Part shown: positions 186 to 22,810 of the stretch, piece by piece
How the letters are laid out: every line of letters begins with the position of its first letter
Position numbering within the stretch: the stretch's first letter is position 1
Source: Biscogniauxia marginata
Lineage: Eukaryota; Ascomycota; Sordariomycetes; Xylariales; Xylariaceae
Length of the DNA: 29,144 bases
Assembly: GCA_022695795.1 (NCBI GenBank)
Contig: MU404254.1
Location: forward strand, 1-29,144
Reading direction: 5' to 3'
Position numbers and translations under genes: made by a program
The notes under the pieces: generated by a model
The model's database searches: none
Told to the model about the DNA's origin: nothing
The model's input: only the letters and a program-made list of their open reading frames with translations

Positions 186-1080
186 CTCACCTAGTAAATC
201 TAATTGCCAAATTCGGCTAAAACCCCAAGTGGCCAATTCAGGTTTTGGGGTTTTGGCGGATACGCTCTAATGGAGCACCGTAGTCACCCCCGGACAGCTT
301 ATATAAGTGGGGTCCCGACAAGAGGGAACTTTGAGTCTATTCACAACAAAGTGGGTCCTTGGGTATCATATATTCGATTATACTCACAACAGCAGTCCCA
401 GACTCACAAGCATATAGTAATGGGCCTAATAATCGCACAGCAGATCCGTACAATGATAGATGCAGTCTACAAGGTATTTTCATAAATTAATAGGTATATG
501 GCTACGTGGCACAAGTACCTTAAACATGGAAGAACATCCTGGTGTAAGATGCTCTAGCTCCAAACTGAGATAAAGCACACAGAGCTGCAAATACAAGAAC
601 AACCAGGGTTTATGCATATATACAGTGTCATTTTCTTCCGGCTAGCTTGGTATATCCTGTTCCTTTCGCTGCTGCAACTTCCTGCTGGTAAAAGCCAGAA
701 CTGCTCGCTTACGTTTTGCAAAGCAAAGAAAACACACCCCTTAAATTGTTTATACAAACTTATTTCTTTAGCCAGTGCCAGGCCCAAATCCTCTTCATAG
801 TCGCCTTCATTATCAGCTTAGGATTTGGTTGAGATAATGCCAAGGCATGTGGACGGGATGGAGTGTATTAGTCCATGTAAGAGCCCGAAAGGGGGGTGCG
901 GAAGCCTAGATAGAGATGCATATGGGAGGCCATAGTACCACCATACCTACAGAGAAAAATCGAAAACGCTTAGGACCTGGCACTAGGCCGTACTGCAGAA
1001 GAAGCCATTAGTGAGCAGGTACTTGCATGGCAACATTGTGTACCTCCCTACCCCATTGCATTCTACCGTGTGAATATTAC
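186..1080. other. Intergenic DNA, no gene supported
   Basis: Ordinary base composition. The open frames here (such as 204-485 on + and 612-800 / 554-787 on opposite strands) are short, mutually overlapping or lack an ATG, and have no recognisable domain. A TATA-like CTTATATAAG lies near 297-306, with a CCAATT at 233-238 upstream, so an unrecognised short transcript or a solo LTR is possible. Nothing supports a specific call. Confidence 0.5.
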
Positions 1081-1297: not shown

Positions 1298-3384
1298 ATG
1301 AACAAACACAATCATCAATATGATCCCAAGGAGGGCATGATCCTTGAGTTCAACGCAAGTGGCTTGCACATGCCTACCTCAAGGCCCACCTGTGTCGAAG
1401 AGGTGCAGCAGGAAGCCAAAGAGCTTAGCCACTCCATTTTCCACTCTTGGAATAAGTTACACGCGATTCTTGAGAAACGAGAGGAGTCCCTCCGTAATAG
1501 GTGGGCCAAAATGACCAGAGGACAGCGAGGAAAGATCCTACAAGCTGCTTGGCCATGTATTGGAGGCCCGGGTTCTGCTACCTCCATGCCGGTAAACCAC
1601 AATCCCCATATAAAGCAACTCCTACAATCGGAAGAGAATCTGGTCGGGAGCAACTTCGTGTGGCCATACGTCAATCTCGAGGACTTGGCTCAACCTCGTA
1701 ATCTTTTACTCCTACTCAACTCACGCGGACGTAATCTCCCCGGCGCGTTTGCTCACGCAGACATGGCTGCTGCTCGCCTAGGTATCTTCTTTGGAGTCCG
1801 ACCTTGGAAAGTTCTCAACGACTGGATAATGTACCTACCGTGTCAGACGGCACAGGAGGCTTACGGTCGTTTGGAATCTTTCCATGGGGATACTTGCGCG
1901 CCAGTGGCCGAGCATAACCAGTTCGACATCACATCCGGACTTATTGTAATGGAAGCCCAGGATAAACTCCTCAAGTTCCTGGTCGAATGCTGCTACCAGA
2001 TATTTGGCAAGGTGCCAAGGGAGAAAATTGCTGACGACACCTTGCCTTCGCTTCCCGAACCCCCTACTCTGGTCAGCGAGCATCCGTATGCGGATTCCAT
2101 CATAATCCCCACGGAGTATGCATATCAGATCCCGAAAAAGTTTGATATGAATCGTCTGAAGCAGCTGGTAGAGGCTCGAAAGGCGGCCGCGCTCGATCAC
2201 GTATTTGATCTCAGAGAGGACCCAGGATACTTTGCCTCCGCCATCTTGGATCAAGGAGATCATCAGTGGCAAAGGATACTTGATACAAACGGCGAGCGGC
2301 ACCCGCACGACAATGACGGGAGGTTCTGGCGCCGGACGGCTTCCAGGGTTATACAGGAGGCCTATTCCAGGTTTCTGGTCTTCGACAAAGTCTACGAAAA
2401 GATCCTAGCTATCGAGAAAGCGGGCTTGAATGACGACAACATATTGGATCCGATGAAGCCGTTGCCCGAGGAGCTGGAAGCGGCGCTGCTAGATTTGCGA
2501 TTGTTTCTCTATGTCAAATCCAACCAAGCAATTGAGACTTTGAAGGAGAACGTCGTAGGATCGCCCGAGCTGCGCAAACTCTTCTTACGGATGCCATACT
2601 TGTATTTGAACGTCGAGAATGAGGACGTAGACGTCGTCAAGTACAAGAACAAACCAACCGACGACATCCTTCTATCACTTTTCAATTGGCTTTGGGATAA
2701 GAACCAGGTCTCCATACTACAACTGCAAACAATCGCTGACGAGATCCAACGGTGTATAGACAATGACGCTTACCAGCAGTCACGGATCTCTCAATGGATC
2801 CTTTTTGTGTTCTCCGAAGTTACTTTATTCGCTCAGCTGTGCCACCATATCGACACTCTCTATCCCTGGGGCCCCGAGATCAATCGTAAGAATTACGAGA
2901 ACATCGAGGCGAAGAAGCCTCTAAATATGGACGATTTTGAGGACATGCTTGACGTTGAATACTCTTGTCTATCTTTCAGGAGAGCCACAAAACACCTCAC
3001 CCCTATAGAAAGCCGCTTCTACTACCCCGCCGATGGTCGCCGGAACAAGGCGAGAACAAAGCAGATGCAGCGGGCAGAGCATAACCTCGACAAGTTCTGG
3101 AAAAACTTCGACAGGCACTTCATCAACTATGTAGGGATATCCATACAGGAGCTGCTTCAGGACCGCGGAGTCGAATGGCGCGAGATGAGCCGGACCCCGG
3201 AATGGATCCCGCGGATGAAGAGAGCCGCGCCGTCGCCGTCCCAGGACGAGATCGACAGCTTCCAGGTCCCGGGCTCGTACGGCGCGCCGGAAAAGGCGCC
3301 GGGCCGCCTCGCTGTCGAGCCGGAGAAGGCAAAGCCCAAGACGCGAGGCACGCCGGACGCGTCCCGCGCCGAACCCAGCGAGGC

Positions 3385-3428
<44 letters not shown>

Positions 3429-3868
3429 CCGCGACGCCGGCCGCGGAAGCGGAAGCGGAAGCGGAAGCGGAAGCGGAAGCGGACGAGGACCCCGCGCCCC
3501 CCTTGTTCGCGGTGCCCAGGCGCGCGTACAAGGTCTTCTCGGCGCTGTTCTTCATGCGCGAGGACGCCGCCGCGGGCACGATCGCCTGGGCCGACTTCCT
3601 CTACGCCATGGCGTGCGTCGGGTTCAGGTTCGAGAAGCGCTACGGCTCCGCCTGGCAGTTCACGCCGACGCGACTCGGCGTCGGTGCCTGCGCCGGCGCC
3701 GGGGGGCAAAATAAGAATAAGACGGCGACGACGACGACGACGATGAGGGGCATCCTGTTCCACGAACCCCACCCGGGCGGCAAGATCGGCCGCGAGCTCG
3801 CGCGCTGCCTCGGCCGCAGGCTGAGCCGGAACTACGGCCTCAGCGGAGAGAACTTCATGCTCGCGTAG
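1298..3868 (+). CDS. Fungal protein of unknown function with Ser / Glu-Ala repeats and a HicA-like C-terminal region
   Basis: An uninterrupted 856-codon frame whose ATG sits in a good context (ACAAAATG). The N-terminal ~240 residues match my memory of a large family of uncharacterised Pezizomycotina proteins: a helical SWNKLHAILEKREE-type start, an FVWPYVNLEDL motif near residue 120, and a segment about SRGRNLPGAFAHAD (~142-155). Residues ~670-740 are low complexity, with a run of 14 Ser at 697-710 and six Glu-Ala pairs. The last ~100 residues contain GSAWQFTP and FHEPHPGGKI, then an arginine-rich end. That layout (GF...G-S...H...K...L) recalls the HicA double-stranded-RNA-binding-like fold, here split by a low-complexity insert (Gly/Ala, Asn-Lys, poly-Thr). 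GC content rises sharply after about 3200. No catalytic function can be assigned. The gene converges on the next gene at 4349-5305. The coding call is strong; the HicA resemblance is inference. Confidence 0.85.
3386..3427 (+). repeat. (AGC)14 microsatellite coding poly-Ser
   Basis: Fourteen uninterrupted AGC triplets in frame with the 856-aa protein, coding Ser 697-710. Pure triplet runs of this length are prone to length change, so this protein is likely to vary between isolates. Confidence 0.97.
3445..3480 (+). repeat. (GGAAGC)6 minisatellite coding Glu-Ala repeats
   Basis: Six perfect copies of GGAAGC, in frame, coding alternating Glu and Ala just after the poly-Ser run. The unit is two codons long, so gain or loss keeps the frame. 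A further (ACG)5 run at 3728-3742 codes for poly-Thr inside the C-terminal domain. Confidence 0.97.
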
Positions 3869-4348
3869 ATGGCTGGCTGGGGATGTCTGTGTTCTTTTCC
3901 TTTTTTTCTTTTTTCCCCCTTTTTTTTCCTTATCAAATCCACAATGAAAATTCCCGTCAGATTCTATGAACCCTGTTAATCAAGGATTACTTCCTAATGT
4001 TTTTTCTTTCTTTTTCCTCAATTCTTTTTTCTCTTTTCCCTTTTTCCTTTTTTATTTTTCATTTTTTTCATTTTATGATATCTGGGGGTTTTTAGTCCGT
4101 ACCTATGGGAAGAGAGTACTTGCCGATTGAGATACTGCTGATCAAGCCTCGAAAAAACCGCCAGAGGGTTACCATGAGACAGGCGGCCGAGTTTTGGACT
4201 AGTTTAGGAGCTAGGAAACAAATAATGGTATCTAAGTGAGCAGATTCAAATTTAGTAGGGCAAGAACCCTATATTTTCCGGTCATTACATTACAGTTCTA
4301 GTGAATAGTGGCTATAGATGCTGCCTCATTTATGATGTGTCCCCCGTC
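3869..4348. other. Convergent 3' intergenic region, T-rich
   Basis: 480 bases between two genes that point at each other, so it should contain both 3' UTRs. The plus strand has long T and T/C runs at about 3896-3930 and 4000-4075. No reading frame, RNA gene or repeat element is recognisable. Confidence 0.6.
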
Positions 4349-5305
4349 TTAAGACTCCCGCCCTCCGTGGAAGAAAAGAGTGCGGAGATGATTGTACATC
4401 TCCTCTGAACTAGACAACCTAGTAGCGTTGCTGTCTGATGCCGAATATCTCGTCGATGGCGGTATATGGTCCAATGTACTATCTAATATTTCCTCGTCCT
4501 CACTCTCCCAGACGGGATCCAGTGACGCGACATCTCTGAACGTCCACTCCCTGCCCAGCCCGAGCACAGAAATTTCACCATTTGGGTGCTGGTTGATCGT
4601 CCACTCGGATCTCTTCTGGATAGTCATCAAGGCCCAGAGCTTCCCGAGGTTGATGATCGGGCTTAGGGAGCTGTACTGATCGAACAGCTGCTTCATTGTA
4701 CTGAAACCCGCACAATCAAAACTGCCCTGCCACATATCAGTAGCTAGCGAGCAAATAGTGCCGAATTCCTTCCTTGAGCTAAAAGTGGCCAAAAACAGCG
4801 AGTCCTGTCTCATTAGCCGCCCGTGATGGAGGTACTCGTATCGGTGATGCACCAGCTTCCGCCTTTTCCAATTCTCGTCCCTCATATGATAGTCTCCCCC
4901 AACGTACCCTAGTTTTCTCGCGATGGCGTGCGCGTTGTACAGATGTTCGAGGTCTCTGCCCCAAATAGCGATGATACTAATTCTCCGGCCTCCTTTCGAA
5001 AATATCCAAGATATCCGCCGCATAGCGGTATTCCAGTCACTGAAGAATGATATATAAGGAGTAGGAACGTGCTTCCAAGACATATGGTCGTCGAAACTTT
5101 CTAGAGAAACAGTGGCTGTTTCTAATGGCCATCGGGGCCTCAGGTTTCCTTTCCAGTCAAACCCCCCATTTGGGGCTCCTGGTCCCCGTTCAGGACCAGA
5201 TTTGTTTATCACTCGGAAGAGCACATAAGGGCGCTGAGACTCTGGGAGCGACAAGGGGGTATTGCCTGAATGGTTCGAGCCATCGGGATCGTATATTGGC
5301 GGCAT
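4349..5305 (-). CDS. DUF7587-like fungal protein
   Basis: A single-exon 318-residue frame. Residues ~27-115 carry a recognisable pattern: LFRVI near the start, then GFDWKGN, a Trp, a leucine/histidine segment (SLESFDDHMSW), TPYISFFSDW, and a hydrophobic strand ISIIAIWGRDL. This matches the uncharacterised ascomycete domain I know as DUF7587, often found in secreted or stress-related multi-copy fungal families. The arrangement of an early Arg and a later YIS-F-S motif is loosely like ADP-ribosyltransferase folds, but no catalytic Glu can be assigned from sequence alone. No signal peptide or membrane segment is apparent. A TATA-like TATATAAA (minus strand) at about 5426-5435 lies some 125 bases upstream. 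The C-terminal third is acidic and Ser-rich. Coding is likely; family assignment is from memory and moderate. Confidence 0.75.
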   Translation of the reverse strand: MPPIYDPDGSNHSGNTPLSLPESQRPYVLFRVINKSGPERGPGAPNGGFDWKGNLRPRWPLETATVSLESFDDHMSWKHVPTPYISFFSDWNTAMRRISWIFSKGGRRISIIAIWGRDLEHLYNAHAIARKLGYVGGDYHMRDENWKRRKLVHHRYEYLHHGRLMRQDSLFLATFSSRKEFGTICSLATDMWQGSFDCAGFSTMKQLFDQYSSLSPIINLGKLWALMTIQKRSEWTINQHPNGEISVLGLGREWTFRDVASLDPVWESEDEEILDSTLDHIPPSTRYSASDSNATRLSSSEEMYNHLRTLFFHGGRES

Positions 5306-6560
5306 ACTTGACTTGACTGTGTCCGCCTGAATGGCTAGCTAGTTGAGAAACACGAGGAATATGGGTAGGTATGAGAGATGAACTTAAATCGCCGTAATGT
5401 AGGCGAAAGCAAGCGAGACGTGAGATTTATATACTACATAAGGGACCTCCTTTCTTTTTGTCAATGGCACCTGTTTTGTGCATACCCCTATCCGCAGCCT
5501 ACTGAGCGATTTTCATCGTGAACCATGGACGCAACAAAAGTCGATAATTACCAAGTGATCTATCTCACTTAGCTGTAAACAATGATCAAAAAACATATTT
5601 CTGCACTGAGGAGACGAAGATCGCGAATGGGCTGGCTAATCAGAAAGGGGGGAGGGGACGGGGCTAAACTGTCTGTCTATTCTCAGATATAATAACAACG
5701 CTGAGAAGTGCGGTCTTCAGAAAGCCTCAGGACAATATACACGTCTTGATTTGAAGTGAGGAAAGGGGAGAGGACTCATTGAGTATCGATGTGTCCTTTA
5801 TCAAAAAAGACCAGAGAATCCGATTTAGCAGAATATTAAAACTGACGACAGGTAGTATGCGAATCCCTTCACCTCAGGAACTACTTATCGCAGATGAAAA
5901 TGAACAAGTATATACATATATGTATGTCGATGTAAGACATGAGCCACTGAAACATGCTGAGCCCTCATGACGATTGAGAATCAATAATGTGTTGAATCCA
6001 TGTTTACTTCGCGACAGTTATCATGCCGTATCAATCAATGTACTAAGACTGCCTGAGTAAGTGGTGGTCACGGAAACGAATTAATAAAGGAGTGAATGAC
6101 GTGGTCGAAATGCCGTACTGGAAAATGGGGTTTTCAAGAACGACTTATGACGGTATACTGTCTCCTTCACTCACCTACCCACCCATTGCTATGACCTAGG
6201 CTTGGCCTTTTCTCAGTAGACAAGTTCAAATATGTACTCAATATGTACGTAGACCCTGACACCGCTTTGCGTATATAGTACTACAGTAAACTATGTGTAT
6301 CATTAGACACGTTATATTCTGGGTCTTCTCTCTGATAATGCGATCCCCCTTCAAACAGTTAACAAAGCCGTGTGGTATGCTGTGAGGGCTGGAAAAGGGG
6401 TCTCCTGAATATAGGATATGTCACATGTCAATTAGAGGATATAATCATCACGTTTGAGACGAATCAATATTATATCATTAATTCATTTTGGCATAAACAT
6501 TATTAACTATGACCTTTACCGCTACCTCCTCTCCCCTATCCGCCCTAAGCCCAGGCAAGA
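5306..6560. other. Intergenic region, no gene supported
   Basis: 1,255 bases of ordinary composition between the start of the DUF7587-like gene and the stop of get2, both on the minus strand. It should hold the promoter of the former and the 3' UTR of the latter. The longest open frame (5779-5970, +) lacks an ATG start and any known feature. No tRNA, rRNA or repeat was recognised. Confidence 0.55.
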
Positions 6561-7624
6561 CTAGGTTCTCAGTAGACGGCACACGCCCATGACGAAGACG
6601 CAGAAGAGCGCGTCGTTCCGGACCGTGCTGAAGATCTGCCCGTACCGCAGCGCGTGGCGCAGGTACCCCTTGGCCGGGTCGGGGAGGAAGCCGCTGACGG
6701 TCCACAGCCAGCCGCTCGGCGGCTCGCGCGCCGCGTCCATGAAATACCGCGTCGTCAGCAGCACGGCCTCGACCGAGGTGAAGACGTAGAAGAAGTAGGC
6801 GCGCGCCTGCTCGACGCTGATGTTGTCCCCCAGCAGGCCCGTGCTCTGGATGGCCGAGTCGTGCTCCCGCTCCGCCCGGCTGCCGGAGAAGGTCGTCGCC
6901 AGCGCCACGTAGAGGCCCAGGCCGAGGGCGAAGATGGCGTGCAGTATGCGCCAGAGGTTCACCGTCTTGCTCGACTGCTGCGCCTGTTGCTGCTGCAGGG
7001 GGTTGGCGCCGCCGAATAGCCCATCCATGCCCGTGCCCGCGAACGGGTTTGCGCCGCCGGGCATGCCGCCTCCCATCATCTTAGACAGCATCTGCACCAT
7101 GGGGTCCTCCTCCATGCCTTCCATGCCGGACGTCGGCGGCGTACCGTCGAATACCGGATTCTGACCCTGTGCGGAACTAGCCGACGCGGGGCGGTCGAGC
7201 CCAAGCATTATCTGTCGCAGCTGTGCCTCCGAGACGTCAGATGCGTCGCCTGTGGGCGTCCGTGAAGTGGCCTTAGGCTCGTAGTAGTGCTGAGAGATGT
7301 CGACTTCCTCCGGGTCGGCATGTTGGTCTGCAGTCGGGGTCGGTTTGGGAGCTGGTAAAGTTGTCGCAGTAGGCTGCGGTGCAGCTGATTCGGAGGCTGG
7401 TTGGGGTTGGGGATCTGGTTGCGATGGTCAGCAAATGGAGGTATTAGATGTCGAGGCAGATAAAGCTCACCTCTCTGGATGCCTCCTCCAAGGCCTGTGA
7501 TCTTATTCAGACGTGCAGCTCCCCCGGCCCTGATTTTGGCCTCTCTCCGTTCCTTGCGAAGACGGGCTTGCTCGGCGGCGCGGGCTGCTGCCGCATCCTC
7601 GGGTGCTTGAACCCCTTCGGTCAT
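6561..7624 (-). CDS. get2: GET complex subunit Get2 (two exons)
   Basis: Get2 forms, with Get1, the ER membrane receptor that takes tail-anchored proteins from the Get3 ATPase. Exon 1 is 7471-7624 and exon 2 is 6561-7414, giving 335 residues. The N-terminus carries the basic RLRKERREAKIRAGG segment (residues 21-35), the conserved Get3-binding motif of Get2/CAML proteins, followed by LNKITGLGGG. A Pro-rich linker leads to EEVDISQHYY and QLRQIMLGLDRP, typical of filamentous-fungal Get2. A Met/Gly-rich middle precedes three predicted membrane segments at about 206-227, 258-277 and 310-333, as expected for the family. The frame joins exactly across the intron (AGA G|AT), which supports the model. 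The stop is at 6561-6563, right after the third membrane segment, as is usual. Divergent with gep3. Confidence 0.9.
7415..7470 (-). other. Intron of get2 (56 bp)
   Basis: On the minus strand the donor is GTGAGC immediately after CAGAGAG. A branch site TGCTGAC lies 18-24 bases before the acceptor AACCAG. Removal restores a single frame from the RERR-type N-terminus into the membrane-domain exon. Without splicing, exon 1 runs on as an unrelated 138-residue frame. Confidence 0.9.
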
Positions 7625-8002
7625 TGTTTCGGGATGGGTATTTTTGTTTATTTTTAGGCTATTTTGCTTCTTCCTCTTCTTCTTCTCCGTAGGTGTTTGG
7701 TAGGTTTTGAGGTTGGGAGAGGTTAGGGGGGTTTTGCGTGGCGAGGTTGCGAGTTGTACAATGTAAGAATGATGAGTTGTTCGAGGAAAGATGCCAGAGG
7801 TGTTAGTGGCTTATCGATAACAACGGCGGCACGGGTTGCAGGGATCGTCTCCAATTAACGTCACCGTTCCTGCGTTTCCATCGCGCTAACTGGAATTTTT
7901 ATAAAGCTTAAAAAGGTTTTGCTTCTGATGCTATTTCCATTCTATTTTTACAAGTACTATCACCTACATATCCATGGCATACGTATCTGCAGGAAAGAGA
8001 CA
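7625..8002. promoter_or_regulatory. Shared divergent promoter region of get2 and gep3
   Basis: 378 bases separate the two ATGs, which point away from each other, so both promoters must lie here. On the get2 side there is a pyrimidine run on + (7668-7690), which is a GA-rich leader in get2 mRNA sense. On the gep3 side an AT-rich stretch with TTTTATAAAG sits at about 7897-7906, roughly 100 bases before the gep3 ATG. No specific operator was recognised. An upstream in-frame ATG at 7928 could give a 25-residue N-terminal extension of Gep3, but it would bury the targeting signal. Confidence 0.5.
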
Positions 8003-10273
8003 ATGCACCGTGCTCTGTCTTCAAGATGGCTCAAAGATGCCTTGAACATCGCAGACCGCCCGGCACGGCTCGAACTGCCTCTATTTCTTTGCCCGTCGGC
8101 TAAGTCGATACGACTCCGTCCAAGACCAAGTGCAGACCCATCTCTCTCTCAACCTCGCGGCCTGCCATGGAATATACATAGACGGGGCTTGCACACACCA
8201 GCAGATCCGTCCACGGCAACCTCCCTGGACCTAGGGAGCAGTGTTATTCAGCCAGCTCCTGCTCACAAACTGCCGAAGCAATGTACAGGCTGCGGTGCTT
8301 TCTCGCAGGCCTCGCATCCGAACATGCCTGGGTACTACGATTTAGAACGCAAAGCGGTCCGGAGGTATCTTGGAGTTGAGCCTAGTTTTAGGCGGTCCCG
8401 CCATGAAGACAAGATCTTCGAAGATGCTCTTAAGCACTTCGATCACGAGGAGCTGGCAAAACGAGGTGTAGACGTCCAGGCACTAGCCTTAAGTGCTGCT
8501 CCCACCGACGATGGCTCGCAGCACATCACGAAGCCACCTCTCTGCGACAGATGCCATTATCTGATGCATAACCACACTGGAGAGTCGATTTATCATCCGG
8601 ACATCGACTCTATTAGGGACACGCTTATGGAGTCACCATACAAATACAACCACGTCTACCACGTTCTTGATGCTGCCGACTTCCCCATGTCCCTCTTGCC
8701 ACGCATATCGCAACTACTTGAACTCATGCCTCTGCGAACCAAGAACCGTAGATCCCGAACCGAGAGGTTCTATCACGGCCAGAAGACTGAGTTGAGTTTT
8801 ATAATAACTCGTTCCGACCTCCTCGCCCCAACAAAAGAGCAGGTAGACAGGCTGTTTCCATATCTACAAAGCGTATTGCGTGACGTGCTGGGCCGCAGTG
8901 GGAGGAACGTCCGGCTGGGTAATATGTTTGCCGTTAGTGCAAAAAGGAGCTGGTGGACTAAGGAGCTCAGAGAGGAAATCTGGAAACGAGGCGGAGCAGG
9001 CTGGATGGTGGGCAAGGCCAATGTTGGCAAAAGTCAATTATTCGAAGCGGTTTTTCCGAAGGGCCGTATGGATTGGGCCCCTTCCAGACACCAGATCACA
9101 GTTGATATGCATGCGAGATCTGCGAATAGGAGGGATAAAAAAGTGCCAGAGATAGTTCCGGGTGTCCAGGAGAACCAGGAAGTCGACGAGCTTGACATGC
9201 TCGAGGGCGAAACATTGAGCAAATACTCACTCTTGCCACCAGCTCCCGAAGAGACACAATATCCAGCTATGCCGCTGGTATCTGATTTGCCGGGAACAAC
9301 CGCATCACCAATTCGGGTTCCTTTTGGAAACGGACGAGGTGAATTGATCGACCTTCCCGGTTTGGAGCGTACTGGTCTAGAACAATATGTCCCAAAAGAG
9401 CATCGCTTGTCCTTAATTATGAAGTCTCGCATAGTACCAGAACAGATCACTCTCAAACCAGGCCAGTCATTACTTATAGGGGGCTTTATCCGCATCACCC
9501 CTAGAGAGCCTGCACCTATCATGTTAACATATGCATTTACGCCTATCAAGCCGCATGGAACAAGAACGGACAAAGCGATTGAGATCCAGAAGCAAGACAC
9601 CCTTGTAAACGTCGAGAATATATCTGTGCCGGGCACGGGGGATAAAATTGAGCTCGCCGGCTCGTTCGAGCTTAAGTGGGATGTGACAAAACAGCGGACC
9701 GGTCCGTTGACGCGGCGTTCAGCTATCGGGCTAAGCGTAGATCGGCTACCGTACCGAGTCCTAGCGACCGATATCCTAATCGAGGGCGTGGGATGGGTAG
9801 AGGTCGTAGCCCAGGTGCGCACCAGGCATCTCTTTGAGGAGACACCGGGAGGAGAAAAGCCCGAGGGGGAGGAGGCCACGGAAGAAAAGAAGACGGAAGA
9901 AAAGACGGCGGAAGAAAATGTCGAGAAGGAATTAACGGCGTGGGAGAAGTTTGAGGCTGCCATCGAAGACCCGAAGAAGAAACTACGCAGCGAGATTCGC
10001 AAGGGATTACCCGCGTGGGGGCAAGGGGAGGCTGGCACTGAAGGTCCAGAGAAGCAATTGCTGCGCGAGCCCAACTGGCCCATCGTAGATGTTTACAGCC
10101 CCGAGGGCAAGTTTATCTCGTGTCGCCCGCCGATGAACGGCTGGCTCCTGAACAAGCCGCTCGTCACGAGTAAACACACGAGGTCGAGGCCGAGGAAGAG
10201 CATGAAGGGCGCAAAGAAGCTCATGAAGAAGCGCAGGCGAGAGAGCGAAGCTGCTGCTAGTGCCGCCTCGTAA
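8003..10273 (+). CDS. gep3: Mitochondrial circularly permuted GTPase Gep3 (genetic interactor of prohibitins 3)
   Basis: 756 residues from the chosen ATG. Gep3/Mtg3 is a YqeH-family GTPase linked to mitochondrial small-subunit ribosome maturation. The N-terminus (MHRALSSRWLKDAL...) is Arg/Ser/Leu-rich and nearly free of acid residues, as in a mitochondrial presequence, which is why ATG 8003 is preferred over 7928. A Cys4 zinc ribbon is visible: C94-x2-C97 and C181-x2-C184. The GTPase motifs occur in permuted order, the family hallmark: G4 TRSD (269-272), G5 SAK (312-314), G1 GKANVGKS (337-344), G2 PGTT (430-433), G3 DLPG (450-453). G4 has TRSD rather than NKxD. There is an ~85-residue insert between G1 and G2, and a Lys/Glu-rich stretch near 610-690. 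The protein is longer than yeast Gep3 (about 550 residues). It ends in a strongly basic tail. Confidence 0.92.
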   Translation: MHRALSSRWLKDALNIADRPARLELPLFLCPSAKSIRLRPRPSADPSLSQPRGLPWNIHRRGLHTPADPSTATSLDLGSSVIQPAPAHKLPKQCTGCGAFSQASHPNMPGYYDLERKAVRRYLGVEPSFRRSRHEDKIFEDALKHFDHEELAKRGVDVQALALSAAPTDDGSQHITKPPLCDRCHYLMHNHTGESIYHPDIDSIRDTLMESPYKYNHVYHVLDAADFPMSLLPRISQLLELMPLRTKNRRSRTERFYHGQKTELSFIITRSDLLAPTKEQVDRLFPYLQSVLRDVLGRSGRNVRLGNMFAVSAKRSWWTKELREEIWKRGGAGWMVGKANVGKSQLFEAVFPKGRMDWAPSRHQITVDMHARSANRRDKKVPEIVPGVQENQEVDELDMLEGETLSKYSLLPPAPEETQYPAMPLVSDLPGTTASPIRVPFGNGRGELIDLPGLERTGLEQYVPKEHRLSLIMKSRIVPEQITLKPGQSLLIGGFIRITPREPAPIMLTYAFTPIKPHGTRTDKAIEIQKQDTLVNVENISVPGTGDKIELAGSFELKWDVTKQRTGPLTRRSAIGLSVDRLPYRVLATDILIEGVGWVEVVAQVRTRHLFEETPGGEKPEGEEATEEKKTEEKTAEENVEKELTAWEKFEAAIEDPKKKLRSEIRKGLPAWGQGEAGTEGPEKQLLREPNWPIVDVYSPEGKFISCRPPMNGWLLNKPLVTSKHTRSRPRKSMKGAKKLMKKRRRESEAAASAAS

Positions 10274-10794: not shown

Positions 10795-12586
10795 ACTTAT
10801 TTATTTATATACACATAAGTTATTTATAATAACTTTATTTTTAATGTTTTAATATTTTTAATGTTTTAATATATAATTTTAACTTTATTTACTTTAATAA
10901 TATTTTTAATATTATAATATAAAGTTAAAATTAACGTTTATATATTTTTCCTTTAAATTTTAATACTTTTTATTTATTAGTTTTATTAAATTTTAAATGT
11001 TTTATATCGAAGTGTTTTTAATAAGAGATTTAATTTTCCGTATAATTAATTTAATAATAATAGTTTTAAAGTTATTATAAAGCTTTTAAATAATTACGTT
11101 TTTTATAATGTTATTTTTAACTATTTTAAACGTATATAAAAAGTTATAATTTTATTATAAAATAAAATTTAAATCGTAATACTTTTTAATTTTTTTAAAA
11201 ATTAACTTTATTAATTAAATATAAAATTTAAATTTTATCTTATTTTAAATGTTTTTAAAGGTTTTTATTTAATATTATAAAAAAAGTTATTTAAAATTAT
11301 TATATTTAATAATTATAATATAATAAATTATTTTTTCGTAATATTTAAAAAGAGGATTTAATTATTATTTTTAAAAGATTCGTTTTTTTAAAAACCGTTA
11401 TTATTTATTTATTTTGTTATTAAACATCTTAACGTGTTTTATAAGTAAATAAGCTATATAAACGAGTAAACTAGTTTTTATAACTTTCGTAATTTTAATT
11501 ATTAAAAAACATTTACGTGATATTAAAATTAATTAATAATTATTATTATTCAAATCTTTTTTTTAATTTTACGTTTTAAAAACTAAATATCTTTTTTATA
11601 TTAAGTATTTAGTTTTTTAACGCGTAATTTAAGTTAATTAATTTATAAATAATATATTTATTATTATTATTAAAACGTGTAAAATTATATTTATATATAT
11701 ATTTTTTTTAAAATTTTTATTTATTTTAAAACTTGATAATATTAAAAAAAACTCGAATAATTTATACGATTAAATGTAAATAATATTATTTAAAAATTTA
11801 CGTTTTATAAAAAAATAATTATTATTTATTTTTCGTTTAAATTATATTATTATAATAATTAACTTTTTATTACGTAAATATAATATAAAATAAGTCGGAA
11901 AAAACTAAATCTTTAATTTTGTACGGCGATAAAAATTATTATAAACGCGTTTAAATAAACAAATCGATTATTAAAAAGCTTTATATAAAAACTTAAATAT
12001 ATATTAAAATAGTTTAAATTAATATATAAAATAATTATTTAAATTAATATAATAATAATAAATATAAAATAATATAAATAATTTTAATAAACTTAATAAA
12101 AAATAAAAAATAAGTTATAATTATTTAAATTATTAATATTAATAATTTTATTATATTAATTAAAAAAAGTATTTAACTTTATAATATTATAATAATTTAT
12201 TATTATTATTAAAAAGTAAAGTTAAAATGTTGAATAATAATTAAATAATAAATAAACTTAATATAAAATTTTTAAAAGTTATTATTTTATAAAATTCGAA
12301 AAATAATATAAAAATTTAATATTATTATATTTAATATATTTAATTATTCGTTATATAAGTTATAATTTCTTGATTTTATATATTTTAATGTTTTAAAAAA
12401 CATATAATAATTATTTAAAAAAACTTAATAAAACGTTATTATTATTATTACGTTATAAAAAAGACTTTTTAATTAACTTTATTAAAATATTTATTATTAT
12501 AATAATTTTATAAGCGTGAAATTAAAAAGTATATAAAATAAGGTTTAAATAAGCTTACTTTTTATTTATTTAAAGTAAATATAAAG
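10795..12586. repeat. RIP-degraded AT-rich DNA of unknown origin
   Basis: Very AT-rich. Remaining C residues are mostly in CpG or CpT contexts and CpA is scarce, as expected after RIP (CpA to TpA). Every frame is closed by stops. A piece around 11,430-11,460 (AACGTGTTTTATAAG...) resembles the termini of the palindromic element at 21,197. A 12-bp inverted repeat (AAAAACTAAATA / TATTTAGTTTTT) lies near 11,577-11,615. The last 60 bases (12,521-12,580) recur after element 1 at about 20,227-20,288. No protein family could be read. Confidence 0.8.
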
Positions 12587-13059
12587 TGTAATAAACCTTT
12601 TTATGTGTTCTTAGTTAATTAACTTCATAAGTGAATACGTACTAGGTTTTCTTAATTTAAAGGTAATAATAAATTAAGGTTAATTTAAGTGATTTATAAT
12701 GTTTTGTTCGTTAAAGAGGTTTCAAGGTACTCTCACTATAATATCAAAGAGTAACTATAGTCTTAAATTGATAGCTGGAAAATGAAAAATCAAATACATA
12801 AAGAATTCCATCCTTTTTATACTTATCCTTTTTAATATATATTCTTTCTATTTAATATATTAAATACCTTTAGATTTAAATGAGTCTTAAGATTAACTTA
12901 GATTTATTATATTAAGTTTATTTTAATTAATAGATTAATATAGATTTAATATTACGTGACATTATATAAAATGTGTATTATCCTTATAATTTTATATATT
13001 TTTAGTCTTTATTTCGATATCTTTATTAGGGCTCCTTTTAATAGAGTTAATTTGTAACA
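12587..13059 (-). repeat. 3' LTR of element 1
   Basis: On + it begins TGTAATAAACC and ends TTTGTAACA, so both strands have TG...CA ends. It aligns without gaps to 19,694-20,166. All differences I could see are transitions. Because the element reads on the minus strand, this is the 3' copy. Confidence 0.93.
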
Positions 13060-13081
13060 TTATTCCCTCTTTTTCTAGATC
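13060..13081 (-). other. Polypurine tract of element 1
   Basis: On the minus strand a purine run (GAAAAAGAGGGAATAA) directly precedes the first base of the 3' LTR, the expected position of the plus-strand primer of an LTR retrotransposon. Element 2 has the matching GAAAGGGAAAAATAA at 22,092-22,106. Confidence 0.7.
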
Positions 13082-13128: not shown

Positions 13129-13746
13129 ATGTCTAGTGTTTTAAAGCCACTTACGAAACCTCGTAAAAGTAAGTGGGAATCCTGTGATTCTTTTACTATA
13201 TATATTCGGTTTTCTAGCTTTAAGGTATTTCCTTGTTTTAATTGTTTTAGAATTAACCTATTTTGCTTTATAATTCTTGAATTTAAAACTTGTTTTAATT
13301 ATATAGTTAAAGTTCGTTATTATTATAATAATTCGGGTATTGAGATATTTAATTTATTTAATATAAGTTAAGAACGAAAGAGATTAATAGTTAAACGTCG
13401 CAAGATAAAAAAGGAACTTTAATCCTTTAATAACTAATTATTAGTTCTTATAAGGTGGTTAATTTATATTCGCAAGTAAAAGGAGTTTCTTTAAAGACGA
13501 GGTTTAAAGATGTTAAAACGTGGTTTTTTATTTATTAAAGAGATGAGGAAAGTGGAGGAAGAAGAATAAGAGCGTTTAAAAGAAGAGCAAGCTAGATTGA
13601 AGGCCAAATAGCGTTCGTTAGCCGAGTAAATTAATGTTGTTTTTATGGCCGTCCCCTTTTTTGACCTATTTTTTCTAAACCAGGATCTCGATTTTCGGGC
13701 CCTTTTAACCGATCCGGGTTTTAGCGGTGAAAGTTTTTAAGCTTAG
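13129..13746 (+). pseudogene. Antisense ORF of element 1: Cys-rich (Zn2Cys6-like) plus coiled-coil protein
   Basis: Starts at an ATG 70 bases inside the LTR and reads in one frame for 206 codons, opposite to gag-pol. Nine internal stops (13,369; 13,420; 13,435; 13,477; 13,492; 13,567; 13,609; 13,627; 13,738) are all TAA or TAG, which RIP makes from CAA/CAG. Residues 36-66 show C-x2-C-x6-C-x8-C-x2-Y-x7-Y. With TGT to TAT changes allowed, this is the spacing of a Zn(II)2Cys6-like cluster. Residues ~138-166 are Glu/Lys/Leu/Arg-rich and look like a coiled coil (EEQARLKAK). The tail contains LDFRALLTDPGFSGES. The frame ends at or just beyond the 3' end of pol on the other strand, so the two are tail to tail. 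Element 2 has an equivalent frame. Function is unknown; a DNA-binding regulator is an inference from the cysteine spacing. Confidence 0.75.
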
Positions 13747-16700
13747 TTATTAAATTCTTTAAATGTTTAAGTGGTTTTTAAGTGTTTTTTAAGTGGGTAT
13801 TCTTTTTATTTAACAAAATATTATAATTAACTTTTAATTCGTTTTAAATTTAATATCTTTTTTATTTTATATTTATTAAGGTTTTTTTTAAATTTTAATT
13901 AACTTTTTAATAAGGCGTTTTTTAATACTAGTTTTAAAAATGAAACATGAAATATAAAATGTATTTTAAATCTTTTTAATAACGCTAATTTATAATTAAC
14001 TTTCGAAATAACCTTTTTAATTTTATATAGTTTTAATTTCTTGAATTTAAGTTTTTTATTAGGTCGTTTTGTTTTAATTTAAGGTGTTTTTAATGTTGCG
14101 CTTTATTATTAATAAAGTAAGTAAACCATGTTTCCTCTTTTAAAAATTGGTCCTTTAATTCTTTTTTTGTTATAATACCTTGTTATTTTATCTTAAATAA
14201 ATTGTAATTCTTTTTATAGTTATTGTTGTATTGTTTAGACCTTTTTAGATAGTACTTTTACTTTTAGGGCTTTTGTTTCGACTTTTAGTGCTTTTGTGAG
14301 TTCGATTGGTTGTTTTTAAACTTCCGCTTTTTACTTGTATACTGCTTTGTGTAATGACATCTTTATGTTTTTGTTAACCGAAATGTTATATGTTATTTAG
14401 GCTATTAATAGCAATTCTACCTAGTTATTTATTTCCTAGTTAATATAGCTTTATAAATATTGTTTTATTATTTGGTTTAGTTTTTTTGTTTATTTATTTA
14501 TTTAAAGATAATACGTTATAAATAACTTTTATTTAATTTTTATTCGTTTTATTAGGTTTATCCAAAATTTTAAAGTAAATAACTTATTTTTATTTGAAAT
14601 AATGTGTTTTAATAATTCATGTTTATTAATATATTCCCTTAAGAAATTAAAAGCTAGTTATTTTGTTATGCTTAATTTATTAAATAATAAAAAATAAGCA
14701 TATTTCGTGAGTTTATTAATAGTTACTTATATGTTATTATAAGGTACTCTTGTGGTAAGATCTTTTAACTTTAGAAGTTTTATTACGAAATCCTATATAA
14801 TTATGTGCCACGCTTTATTAAGTATTTAAGTTAGTTATAATAGTTTATATGGTTTATATCGTGATGCCTTAGCTTTATTATAAACGTTACAATTTTTTAT
14901 AATTCTTTTAATTGTTTGTCGTATTTCTAGGAAGTCAAATTCCTTTTAAAGTCGTTTTATTATTTTAAAAATTCCCTGGTAACCGTATAGAGGATATTCG
15001 TGGAATTCTTTGACGAATTCGTCCTATACTCGTTCTAGTACGTATATCTTTTCCTTATATAAGAGAAGTTCATCGCTAAATCCTTATTAAAACTATAATT
15101 GTTTTTCTTTTTAATTGTAATTTTCCTTGAAACGTTATTTCTAGTTTTTTATATTAATTCGTATATAAGTTAATATAATTGATTTATTATTTTGTTATTT
15201 AAATATTTAGATATTTCTTTTATTGATTTTTAATTTATAATCTCTCTTTTTATTAAGAAGATTTACTTAAATATTTTCCTTTTTCTTAATATATTGGATT
15301 TTAAAATTGAATTTAAACAGGAAAATCATTTAACGCTTATGTCTTTAGTTAAGCGTTTGTATTATTATAAATCATATAAGGTTTTTATGATTTAAATATA
15401 TATTAATAGGTTCTTTAGTTCTGTTAAGTTATAGTTCTCATTTATTTAGTGCTTTAATAATTATTAATAGTTCCTTATTATAAATCTAATAATTCAGTTT
15501 AGTATTATATAGTGCTTTAAATAAGTACGCAACTAGGTACCATTTTTTATTGTTTTTTAGTTGCTTTAAAACTATTTTAATGGCGAAATCTAAGGCGTTT
15601 GTCCTTAGTCGTTTCTTTTTATTTTCGTTTAGAAGTTTATATATAACCTTATTAGTTATAACTTTTTTTAGCTGCTAAAAAGCCTGTTTAGCTTCTTTAA
15701 TGAAATAGAAAGCCTCTCTTGTTTTTATTAAGGTAATTAGTTCTGTTAATGGTTTAGCGATTCGCTTGAAATCTTTAATGAATTATTTAACGTAATTAAT
15801 AAAGCCAAGAAATACGCGTATATTTATAACACTTTTAAGTTTTAATTAATCCTTAACTATTGCTATTTTCCCTTTTTAAATGCGGATTTCTCCTAAACTT
15901 ATTATAAACTTTAAATAGTTTAGTTTTTTAATATATTATTTACTTTTAATTAAATAAATAAGTAGGTTTGTTTTTTCTAAGGCTTTTAACACTTGTTTTA
16001 TATATTCCTTATATTTCTTCTCGCTTTTTAAGTAAATTAATATATCGTTTAAATAAACGAATACAAATTTATTTAAAAACTTATAAAAGATCGTTATAAT
16101 TATATGTTAAAATGTAATAAGTGTGTTAATAAGTCTAAATAACATAACCTTATATTTATAGTATTTATATATCGTTTGAAATATGGTATATTATTTGTGT
16201 CTTTTAGCCATTTTAATTATATAATATTTATTATAAAGGTTTAGTGCTATAAAGATTTAAGCTTTGTTGATTTGTTCTTTTATGAGTTTTATTAGTAGTA
16301 ATAAGTGTCCGTTTTTCTTGGTTATTTTATTGAGGTGTTAGTAGTTAATTACTCGTTATTATATTAAACTTCCTTTTTTATTAATATGTTGTTTCTTGTT
16401 TTTATCGACTTTTAATATTATAATTACTAGGTATTTTAACGAAAACTTTAATTTTTAAATATATCCTTTATTAAATTCTTTTTAAATTCTTTTTTATAGT
16501 GCTTTTTGTTTTTCTTGATTTATAAGATATATTAAGAATAGTTTTAGCTATTTTCTTTTTTTAAAGTAAATTTAGTGATTTTATTAGCTATGTTTTAATA
16601 ATTCTTTTTTTATTTTGTTTTTAAATAATTTGTGAAAACAGAAGTACTTATGTAGTACTCTTTTCGTTAGATTTTTAAGCTTGGTTACTTAAATTATATA

Positions 16701-19617: not shown

Positions 19618-19693
19618 GTTTGTTTTGGGACGATTCGACCGAGAGTCCCTTCTTTTAAATTAATGTTAAGCATTAATTAAGGAGTTATTAAAA

Positions 19694-20166
19694 TGTGATA
19701 AACCTTTTTATATGTTTTTAGTTAGTTAACTTTATAAATAAGTATATATTAGGTTTTCTTAATTTAAAGGTAATAATGAATTAAGATTGATTTAAGTGAT
19801 TTATAATGTTTTATTTGTTAAAAAGGTTTTAAGGTATTTTCATTATAATATTAAAGAGTGATTATAGTTTTAAATTAATAGCTGGAGAATGAAAAATTAG
19901 ATATATAAGGAATCTCATCCTTTTTATACTTATTCTCCTTGATATATATTCTTTCCGTTTAATATATTAAATACCTTTAGATTTAAATGAGTCTTGAGAT
20001 TAACTTAGATTTATTATGTTAAGTTTGTTTTAGTTAATAGATTAACACAGATTTAATATTACGTGACGTTATATAAAATGTGTATTATCCCTATAATTTT
20101 ATACATTCTTAGTCCTTGTTCTGACATCCTTGTTAGGGCTCCTTTTAACAGAGTCGATTTGTAACA
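19694..20166 (-). repeat. 5' LTR of element 1
   Basis: On + it begins TGTGATAAACC and ends ATTTGTAACA, 473 bp, the same length as the left copy. It should hold the element's promoter, reading leftwards. It keeps more C/G in its right-hand ~270 bases than the left LTR does, and less in its left-hand part. Confidence 0.93.
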
Positions 20167-21196
20167 AAATAATATAATTAACTTTATTATTAAAAACGCC
20201 GGGTTTATAACTTTTATAAGTATAAAACTAAAAAGTATATAAAATAAAGTTTAAATAAGCTTACTTTTTTATTTATTTAAAGTAAATAAAAGGCTTTTTA
20301 TATATAAATATTAATTATTTTTATTAAAATAAACATAATTACGTAATTTCCTTGATAAAGAGATTTAATATTTATAATTATAAATACCCTTATCCGCGAT
20401 AAATAATTATTTTAAATATATAAGTTAAGTTTTATATAATTAAATTAAAAAATTTAATTTAAAAAAGGTTATTATTATATTATTTTTATATTAAAAACGT
20501 ATATATTTTCTTTTAATTTCAATATAAATTAAGTGTTTTAAAAAGTTAAAATATTTATAATAATTTACGAGATATTATTATAATTTTATTTTATTATAAA
20601 TAAAATTAAAAAGTACTAAAAAAGTTGTTTTATAAATATTATAAATATTTAGAATTAATTTATAAAAATTAATTTATTATTATAATATAAAGTAGTTTTA
20701 TTACGAAATAAAATTATTTATTTTTAAAAAATAAATTATGTTTTTTATAAGCAATATAAAACTAAAAATAAATAATTATAAATAAAAAACATTTAATATA
20801 AAAAAGAATAATTTTATAAGTTAAAAAAGATAATATTATAATTAATAATAAAAAAGAAAAGCCTCGAAAAAAAGTAATAATTAAATAAAAAATAGTATAA
20901 TATATATAATTAAACTAATTATAATACGTATATTTATATAACAAATAAAAATGCGTTTAATAATTGTTGGTAAATACATATATAAATAAAGTAAATAACT
21001 AAACGAAGTAAAGCAAATAAGGTGAAACGATGTATATTTAGTTATTTAAAAAGGTAACTATTTAACTACGTATAAAGGAAATCTAAAACGTTACTTATAA
21101 GCCTTATATATAAAGGTCCCTTGTAAATTAATTATTTAACCATTAATAATATAATAAATAAAAAAGTATTTAATAATTTAGATTTTAAAGAGTTAT
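20167..21196. repeat. RIP-degraded AT-rich DNA between elements
   Basis: No readable protein. Bases 20,227-20,288 repeat the 60 bases just left of element 1. A perfect 11-bp inverted repeat (AAATAACTAAA at 20,993-21,003 and TTTAGTTATTT at 21,037-21,047) frames a slightly GC-richer 33-base core. The rest is featureless AT-rich sequence with RIP-type dinucleotide bias. Confidence 0.7.
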
Positions 21197-22195: not shown

Positions 22196-22810
22196 ATGTT
22201 TTATCGTATTAATAAAAATCGTAAAGAAAATTCTCGCGTCTCGTGTTATATTAAGAAATTAATTAAAAATAAATTTACTTTTATAAACTTTGTTATTCTT
22301 AACAGTAAAAAGAAAATAATTTATTTATATTACGAGTATATTAAAAAGAAATATATTATTTTCGAGGATTTCGATTGTTATAACGAATATATTTAAATAA
22401 AGCGGTCCCGATATAATGTTTTTAATATTATAAAGAAAGGTGTTATTAAAATTATATAATAATTTTAATAAGTAAAAGCGGAATTAAAAAAGGCTAATAT
22501 TACTATTAAGGTTATTATAAATAAGGCCTGTTGTTTTTACATTTAAAAGCGTTTATAGTCCGAAAAATTATAAAAAATAATTACTCGGGGCCTTAATTTC
22601 ATCGAGGAATTAAAACGTGTAAAGCGTAAAAAGGCAAAACAAGGGCGCTTTATTATAAAATAAAAATACACGGAGAAATCGCTGTGTTAATTTAAACTCG
22701 AGTAAGGTGTATTTATTTCGAAGGCCTTCTCCTCTTTTAATTAGTTTTAATTAAATTCTTAGGTTTTTCTGGCCGATTTAGGTTTTAACGGTAAAACTTA
22801 ATAAGCTTAA
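22196..22810 (+). pseudogene. Antisense ORF of element 2: homologue of the Cys-rich frame
   Basis: ATG at 22,196, 105 bases inside the LTR, then one continuous frame of 205 codons on + against pol. The first 66 codons are still open. Later stops are TAA or TAG only. Residues 43-73 read Y-x2-Y-x6-Y-x8-Y-x2-Y-x7-Y, the same spacing as the Cys/Tyr pattern in element 1, consistent with TGT or TGC codons turned into TAT or TAC by RIP. A Ser-Cys pair at 16-17 corresponds to 18-19 in element 1. A basic, Lys/Arg/Glu-rich segment follows. The tail FLADLGFNGKT resembles the element-1 tail. Overall protein similarity is low outside these features although length is nearly identical. It overlaps the pol 3' end (chromodomain, 22,800-22,890). 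Confidence 0.7.

Follow-up and report, generated by a model that had tools for sequence, protein, structure and literature searches.

A probable antisense third gene with a Zn2Cys6-like cysteine cluster in RIP-decayed fungal chromoviruses

Element 1 and its antisense frame

The stretch analysed here (the window) is the whole of contig MU404254.1, 29,144 nt long, from a genome of 45.3 Mb that is fungal judging from its content. From ∼10.5 kb onwards the window is AT-rich (GC content of 9–26% in 1-kb bins) and holds retrotransposon copies with the signature of repeat-induced point mutation (RIP). Our subject is an antisense open reading frame (aORF) in one of these copies, element 1, a Ty3/gypsy chromovirus on the minus strand; as far as sequence comparison can tell, this frame is almost certainly the RIP-decayed copy of a real gene, a third one besides gag and pol. 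The RIP indices of element 1 are 1.29 (TA/AT) and 0.72 (composite); in the first 10 kb, where genes lie, they are 0.81 and −0.37.

The long terminal repeats (LTRs) of element 1, found by comparison of the pair and 87% identical, occupy 19689..20166 (5′ LTR) and 12582..13059 (3′ LTR), both on the minus strand. Directly beside the 3′ LTR the sense strand reads as a purine-rich stretch (13060..13076, minus strand), likely the polypurine tract of the element, which lies between the LTR and the ATG of the aORF. The only part of pol recognisable in element 1 is its C-terminus, the end of the chromodomain and the tail (13583..13789, minus strand), located by alignment of pol tails; Pfam scans of the pol pieces of element 1, made in one frame, gave no match.

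The original prediction described a plus-strand frame of 206 codons at 13129–13746, which indeed starts with ATG and holds ten stops. Its ATG is situated 70 bases inward of the LTR edge at 13059, i.e. in the internal part of the element. The 3′ border had to be moved: the alignment with a distant copy, L051, continues past 13746, and by eye the next stop, 13768–13770, is the probable end, so that we assign the aORF to 13129..13770 (plus strand). Its 3′ end overlaps the pol C-terminus in antisense over about 160–190 nt.

Is the frame a gene

That the frame is interrupted solely by TAA and TAG holds for 13129–13737 (seven TAA, one TAG, no TGA); as an argument for a gene this hardly discriminates, because the five other frames behave similarly across 27 copies. 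RIP-like stops occur in all six frames of these copies, the plus frame having the fewest (5.2% of cells versus 6.2–11.0%). As the stop pattern by itself says little, we decided on gene status by homology.

A profile was built from 36 uninterrupted proteins, 35 taken from databases and one from this genome, and compared with the six translated frames of the window. The sole clear match is at 13156–13599 on the plus strand (E-value 6.6e-17); the row ranking second, with an E-value of 0.16, is the coil part of the aORF of another copy, element 2 (22196..22804, plus strand). This second aORF belongs to a second deep lineage and has Tyr at all six sites of the cluster described below.

Less degraded copies with no open plus-strand frame, the counter-evidence that the original prediction had named, did not turn up: L051, located at the start of contig C118, carries an uninterrupted aORF of 230 aa. 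Its pol pieces match protease, reverse transcriptase, RNase H, integrase H2C2, SH3 and chromodomain models of Pfam (the integrase core scores below its cut-off), so that this relative shows the order of protease, reverse transcriptase, RNase H and integrase and the C-terminal chromodomain of a Ty3/gypsy chromovirus. In L051 the frames of pol (end at 678) and of the aORF (end at 862) have 185 nt in common, in antisense. Homologues, profile match and the uninterrupted copy together bear out the claim of a third, antisense frame in a chromovirus.

In the pol tail of L051, after the chromodomain, we also saw an RGRPPK stretch (∼700–770, minus strand), which we take to be AT-hook-like; a RIP-altered form of it is present in element 1 at ∼13620–13650 of the window (minus strand).

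For the copy alignment 30 copies were collected and three (L046, L048 and L050) dropped as too short, which left 27 including the window. Indels among them measure 6, 9, 21 and, once, 1 nt; length is kept in threes in 26 of the 27. Transversion columns number 17, 11 and 30 at codon positions 1, 2 and 3; like the conserved length, this counts in favour of a gene.

Cysteine cluster and coiled coil

The cluster (13234..13326, plus strand) has the sites C,C,C,C,Y,Y with the spacing 2-6-8-2-7, just as originally described. The pattern of the family is C-x2-C-x6-C-x8-C-x2-C-x7-C. The consensus of the GAL4 class is C-x2-C-x6-C-x(5-12)-C-x2-C-x(6-8)-C, and the aORF spacing falls within it, apart from individual members, P0028 and P0044 among them, that depart from it in the first loop; 19 domains of the host were used for comparison. 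In all 27 copies of the first lineage the six sites are only Cys or Tyr (the sixth is Tyr in every copy), and the columns with ≥90% Cys/Tyr and at least one Cys number five of 206, every one a cluster site. Tyr in decayed copies is no surprise, because Cys to Tyr changes are expected from RIP. The second lineage, sampled at 20 of the 145 matches of the element 2 query, has the same six sites and spacing, again only Cys or Tyr, in 20/20 copies. Among aligned proteins (L072, which has no such pattern, was dropped from this comparison) Cys occupies five of the sites in 46/46 and the third in 45/46, L051 having Tyr there.

Composition of the loops differs from that of the host domains. The K+R content of loops 1 and 2 is 1.6 and 2.3 in aORF proteins, versus 4.3 and 1.0 in host domains; Asp follows Cys6 in 43/46 aORF proteins, and in the host it follows Cys3 in 15/19. 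With the PF00172 score under the cut-off and the basic loop in the other half, we use the label 'Zn2Cys6-like'; the spacing of the original claim stood, and its cysteines are near-invariant. Structural neighbours of a domain model, among the matches listed, were GAL4-class Zn2Cys6 domains in 5/5 and 14/14 cases, with weak scores; Foldseek with a full-length model gave no neighbour, and Pfam detected no other fungal transcription-factor domain in the aORF proteins. Judged on sequence, the aORF product very probably carries a zinc cluster.

The E/K/L-rich part that follows (13327..13640, plus strand, ends approximate) was expected to be a coiled coil, and this expectation held: the model of a homologue has a single long helix at residues 76–145, and the family shows heptad periodicity over residues 117–172 (P = 0.001). 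A coiled-coil dimer region after the cluster is a further feature of the GAL4 class; in the aORF protein the dimer itself is predicted.

A family of hypothetical proteins

Searches among 5.8 billion proteins listed two proteins with L051 as query, then 36 and 50 with two alignments (P0020 was omitted from alignment A3). Those named are mostly 'hypothetical' or 'uncharacterized' proteins, from Apiospora, Corynascus, Neoarthrinium, Cordyceps, Thyridium, Fusarium, Trichoderma, Xylaria and Cryphonectria, in agreement with the original prediction, which mentioned unnamed fungal database proteins of such a layout. The exceptions are one 'Zn(2)-C6 fungal-type domain-containing protein' of Pyricularia oryzae and a fragment, P0059, named as peptidoglycan hydrolase-like. 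The family is present in many other Sordariomycetes, with protein identity across genera of about 30–60%. Sequence searches of Pfam, NCBIfam and PDB with the homologues gave nothing over cut-off, and a scan of viral contigs found no relative. We suggest that a set of 'hypothetical' fungal database proteins are in fact parts of mobile elements.

Eight of the 50 homologues (P0022, P0024, P0025, P0029, P0034, P0035, P0040 and P0047; P0051–P0063 were left out of this count) are longer by ∼15–20 residues, inserted at a single position downstream of the cluster. The Fusarium proteins P0042, P0043 and P0045, close to P0047, are without this intron-like insert, as are the window aORF and L051. We infer that the insert is an intron, which would imply a spliced antisense mRNA.

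Copies in the genome and place beside pol

The query of element 1 type gave 152 matches, of which 150 entered the counts, and the query P0002 gave 103; merged, they mark 202 places. With the aORF of element 2 as query there were 145 matches, which fall on 135 places; 16 of these overlap places of the first set. Together the two lineages thus occupy at least 321 places, a minimum figure, since scoring covered the best candidates only.

The chromodomain matches, likewise the best candidates scored, number 134. An antisense aORF lies on the 3′ side of 110 of them (65 with an aORF of the first set, all antisense, and 45 more with one of the second), and a same-sense aORF on that side of none. The two matches overlap in 74 of the 110 pairs, by 2–23 nt and always in one phase. 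Within the first set, a chromodomain lies less than 1.5 kb from the 5′ side of two aORFs, and for one of the two it has the same sense. Hence in the window and in the genome the aORF stands antisense between the pol end and the 3′ LTR, and in most of the scored copies.

Known antisense genes

The statement that canonical elements carry only gag and pol overlooked published antisense genes (PMC7264820, PMC8365987). One of these is brtn, the antisense gene of Boty in Botrytis cinerea (Zhao et al. 2011, as cited in PMC8365987, PMC7264820, PMC4227169 and PMC5987419); like the aORF, it is an extra gene in a fungal Ty3/gypsy element, located in antisense between pol and the 3′ LTR. The passages on brtn in these four papers mention no zinc cluster, the comparison being one of descriptions; by name, no BRTN protein is among the aORF homologues listed. 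Plant antisense aORFs (Grande gene23, RIRE2, Retand and PvRetro13) resemble the present one in place, orientation and presence in most copies, and their function, as that of antisense genes at this site generally, is given as unknown (PMC7264820). They differ in that the portions of that source dealing with them mention an SMC domain in PvRetro13, no zinc finger and no clear resemblance to proteins in databases.

Antisense genes in such a place are thus already described, in Boty and in several plant families (PMC7264820 and PMC8365987, in the parts consulted). Relative to the literature found, the protein family, the cysteine cluster, its spread and the frequent pairing with the chromodomain are new: among the matches listed, the literature on the subject contained no zinc-cluster antisense gene of a fungal element, and the words 'antisense' and 'zinc' are absent from the main text of Muszewska et al. 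2011 (PMC3248453). The gene described here can be linked to a known class of fold and accompanies most scored chromodomain matches of one genome. With fold class, chromodomain pairing and uninterrupted homologues at hand, an element-encoded regulator becomes a direct question for the bench.

What the gene may do

The element probably makes its own regulator. As a whole explanation we favour, with some reserve, that the frame is what RIP has left of a genuine antisense third gene encoding a DNA-binding regulator of the LTR. The Ty3/gypsy chromoviruses of this genome would carry this gene antisense to gag-pol, between the 3′ end of pol and the 3′ LTR; the antisense mRNA from which it is translated would start within the 3′ LTR or just beside it, with one intron spliced in several fungi. 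The product, of ∼200 aa, would bind two zinc ions, dimerise via the coil and bind DNA. Its most likely target would be the element's own LTR, where it may tune sense transcription (copy-number control); on analogy we hold such regulation for a fairly even matter, leaning slightly to doubt. The mode of action may be likened to that of HBZ on the LTR of human T-cell leukaemia virus type 1 (HTLV-1). HBZ, encoded by an antisense gene at the 3′ LTR, is a nuclear regulator of zipper type and represses transcription of the sense strand; it is an unrelated bZIP protein with no zinc cluster, so that the likeness is by analogy only (PMC3185765, as far as excerpted).

One could speculate further, and we do so tentatively, that an old antisense gene, in many cases with an intron, is common to chromoviruses across Sordariomycetes and encodes a Zn2Cys6-like, coiled-coil protein that binds DNA and regulates their own LTR, with the recognition half moved to the second half of the cluster, an independent fungal counterpart of HBZ. 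The intron could have persisted because genomic RNA is transcribed from the opposite strand.

The likeness to GAL4-class proteins (spacing, coil after the cluster, structural neighbours) has its limits, as the aORF protein is only ∼200 aa long, and several findings weigh against the explanation we favour. The best PF00172 score is 16.4 bits with a cut-off of 21; the basic first loop and the Cys-Asp step of the GAL4 class are not where that class has them; and the distribution of transversion columns over codon positions, used in place of the ratio of nonsynonymous to synonymous rates because RIP swamps the latter, would by itself also fit minus frame 2.

The missing basic loop would suit a real protein of another kind, a nuclear or chromatin tether or an integration accessory that is a partner of the pol chromodomain rather than a transcriptional regulator. 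Such a protein would also accord with the coexistence and overlap of the aORF with the chromodomain at the pol end, and nuclear import or accessory roles have been proposed for plant antisense ORFs (PMC7264820, in part); GAL4-like spacing, coiled coil and fold neighbours, however, favour DNA binding, and we regard a tether or accessory as unlikely, if the strongest competitor. It is a good deal less probable that the antisense RNA matters and not the protein. The arrangement is convergent and overlapping, and double-stranded RNA limiting the element, as discussed for plant elements in the same source, could arise from convergent transcription; yet identity of ∼30–60% across genera, near-invariant cysteines and length kept in threes need a protein.

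Recent capture (transduction) of a host Zn2Cys6 gene by this one element family has in its favour a genome with at least 117 Zn_clus matches; we consider it quite improbable, given that the presence of two deep lineages side by side in this genome, and of homologues in many genera, suggests a component of long standing, and that the polarity of the cluster differs from that of the 19 host domains. An artefact, be it the antisense shadow of conserved pol sequence or a frame that RIP has left open by chance, would be in keeping with equally RIP-like stops in the other frames and with the overlap of about the last quarter of the frame with pol, but ∼three quarters, including the entire cluster, are outside the pol match, the profile matches clearly in this frame only and uninterrupted genes share the layout, and in our view L051 and the profile match refute it.

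Other features

A short element with little RIP inside, L053 (C2:902500-905800, at 742–2493), has LTR-like repeats at ∼742–1177 and ∼1975–2493 that enclose <800 bases: a gag-like start and, in antisense, the N-terminal part of an aORF, uninterrupted and with its six cysteines complete. It resembles a non-autonomous derivative that has lost internal sequence and retained the zinc cluster. In parts of its repeats with little RIP (1106–1177 and 2422–2493) we noticed by eye two perfect 10-base palindromes, AGTACGTACT and GTCAGCTGAC, the latter intact in one repeat copy only; they are candidate sites for a dimeric binder.

On both sides of element 1 there is an 85-nt repeat, 91% identical (12502–12584 and 20207–20291), that abuts the LTR at the left and is ∼40 nt distant at the right. 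A third, inverted copy of the same type of element begins at the contig end (27476–29050; inverted repeats I1–I3). The flank of normal GC content, 1298–10273, holds host genes: a DUF7587 protein (4349–5305, minus strand), a GET2 homologue (6561–7208, minus strand) and a gene with a GTPase-domain match (7919–10273, plus strand).
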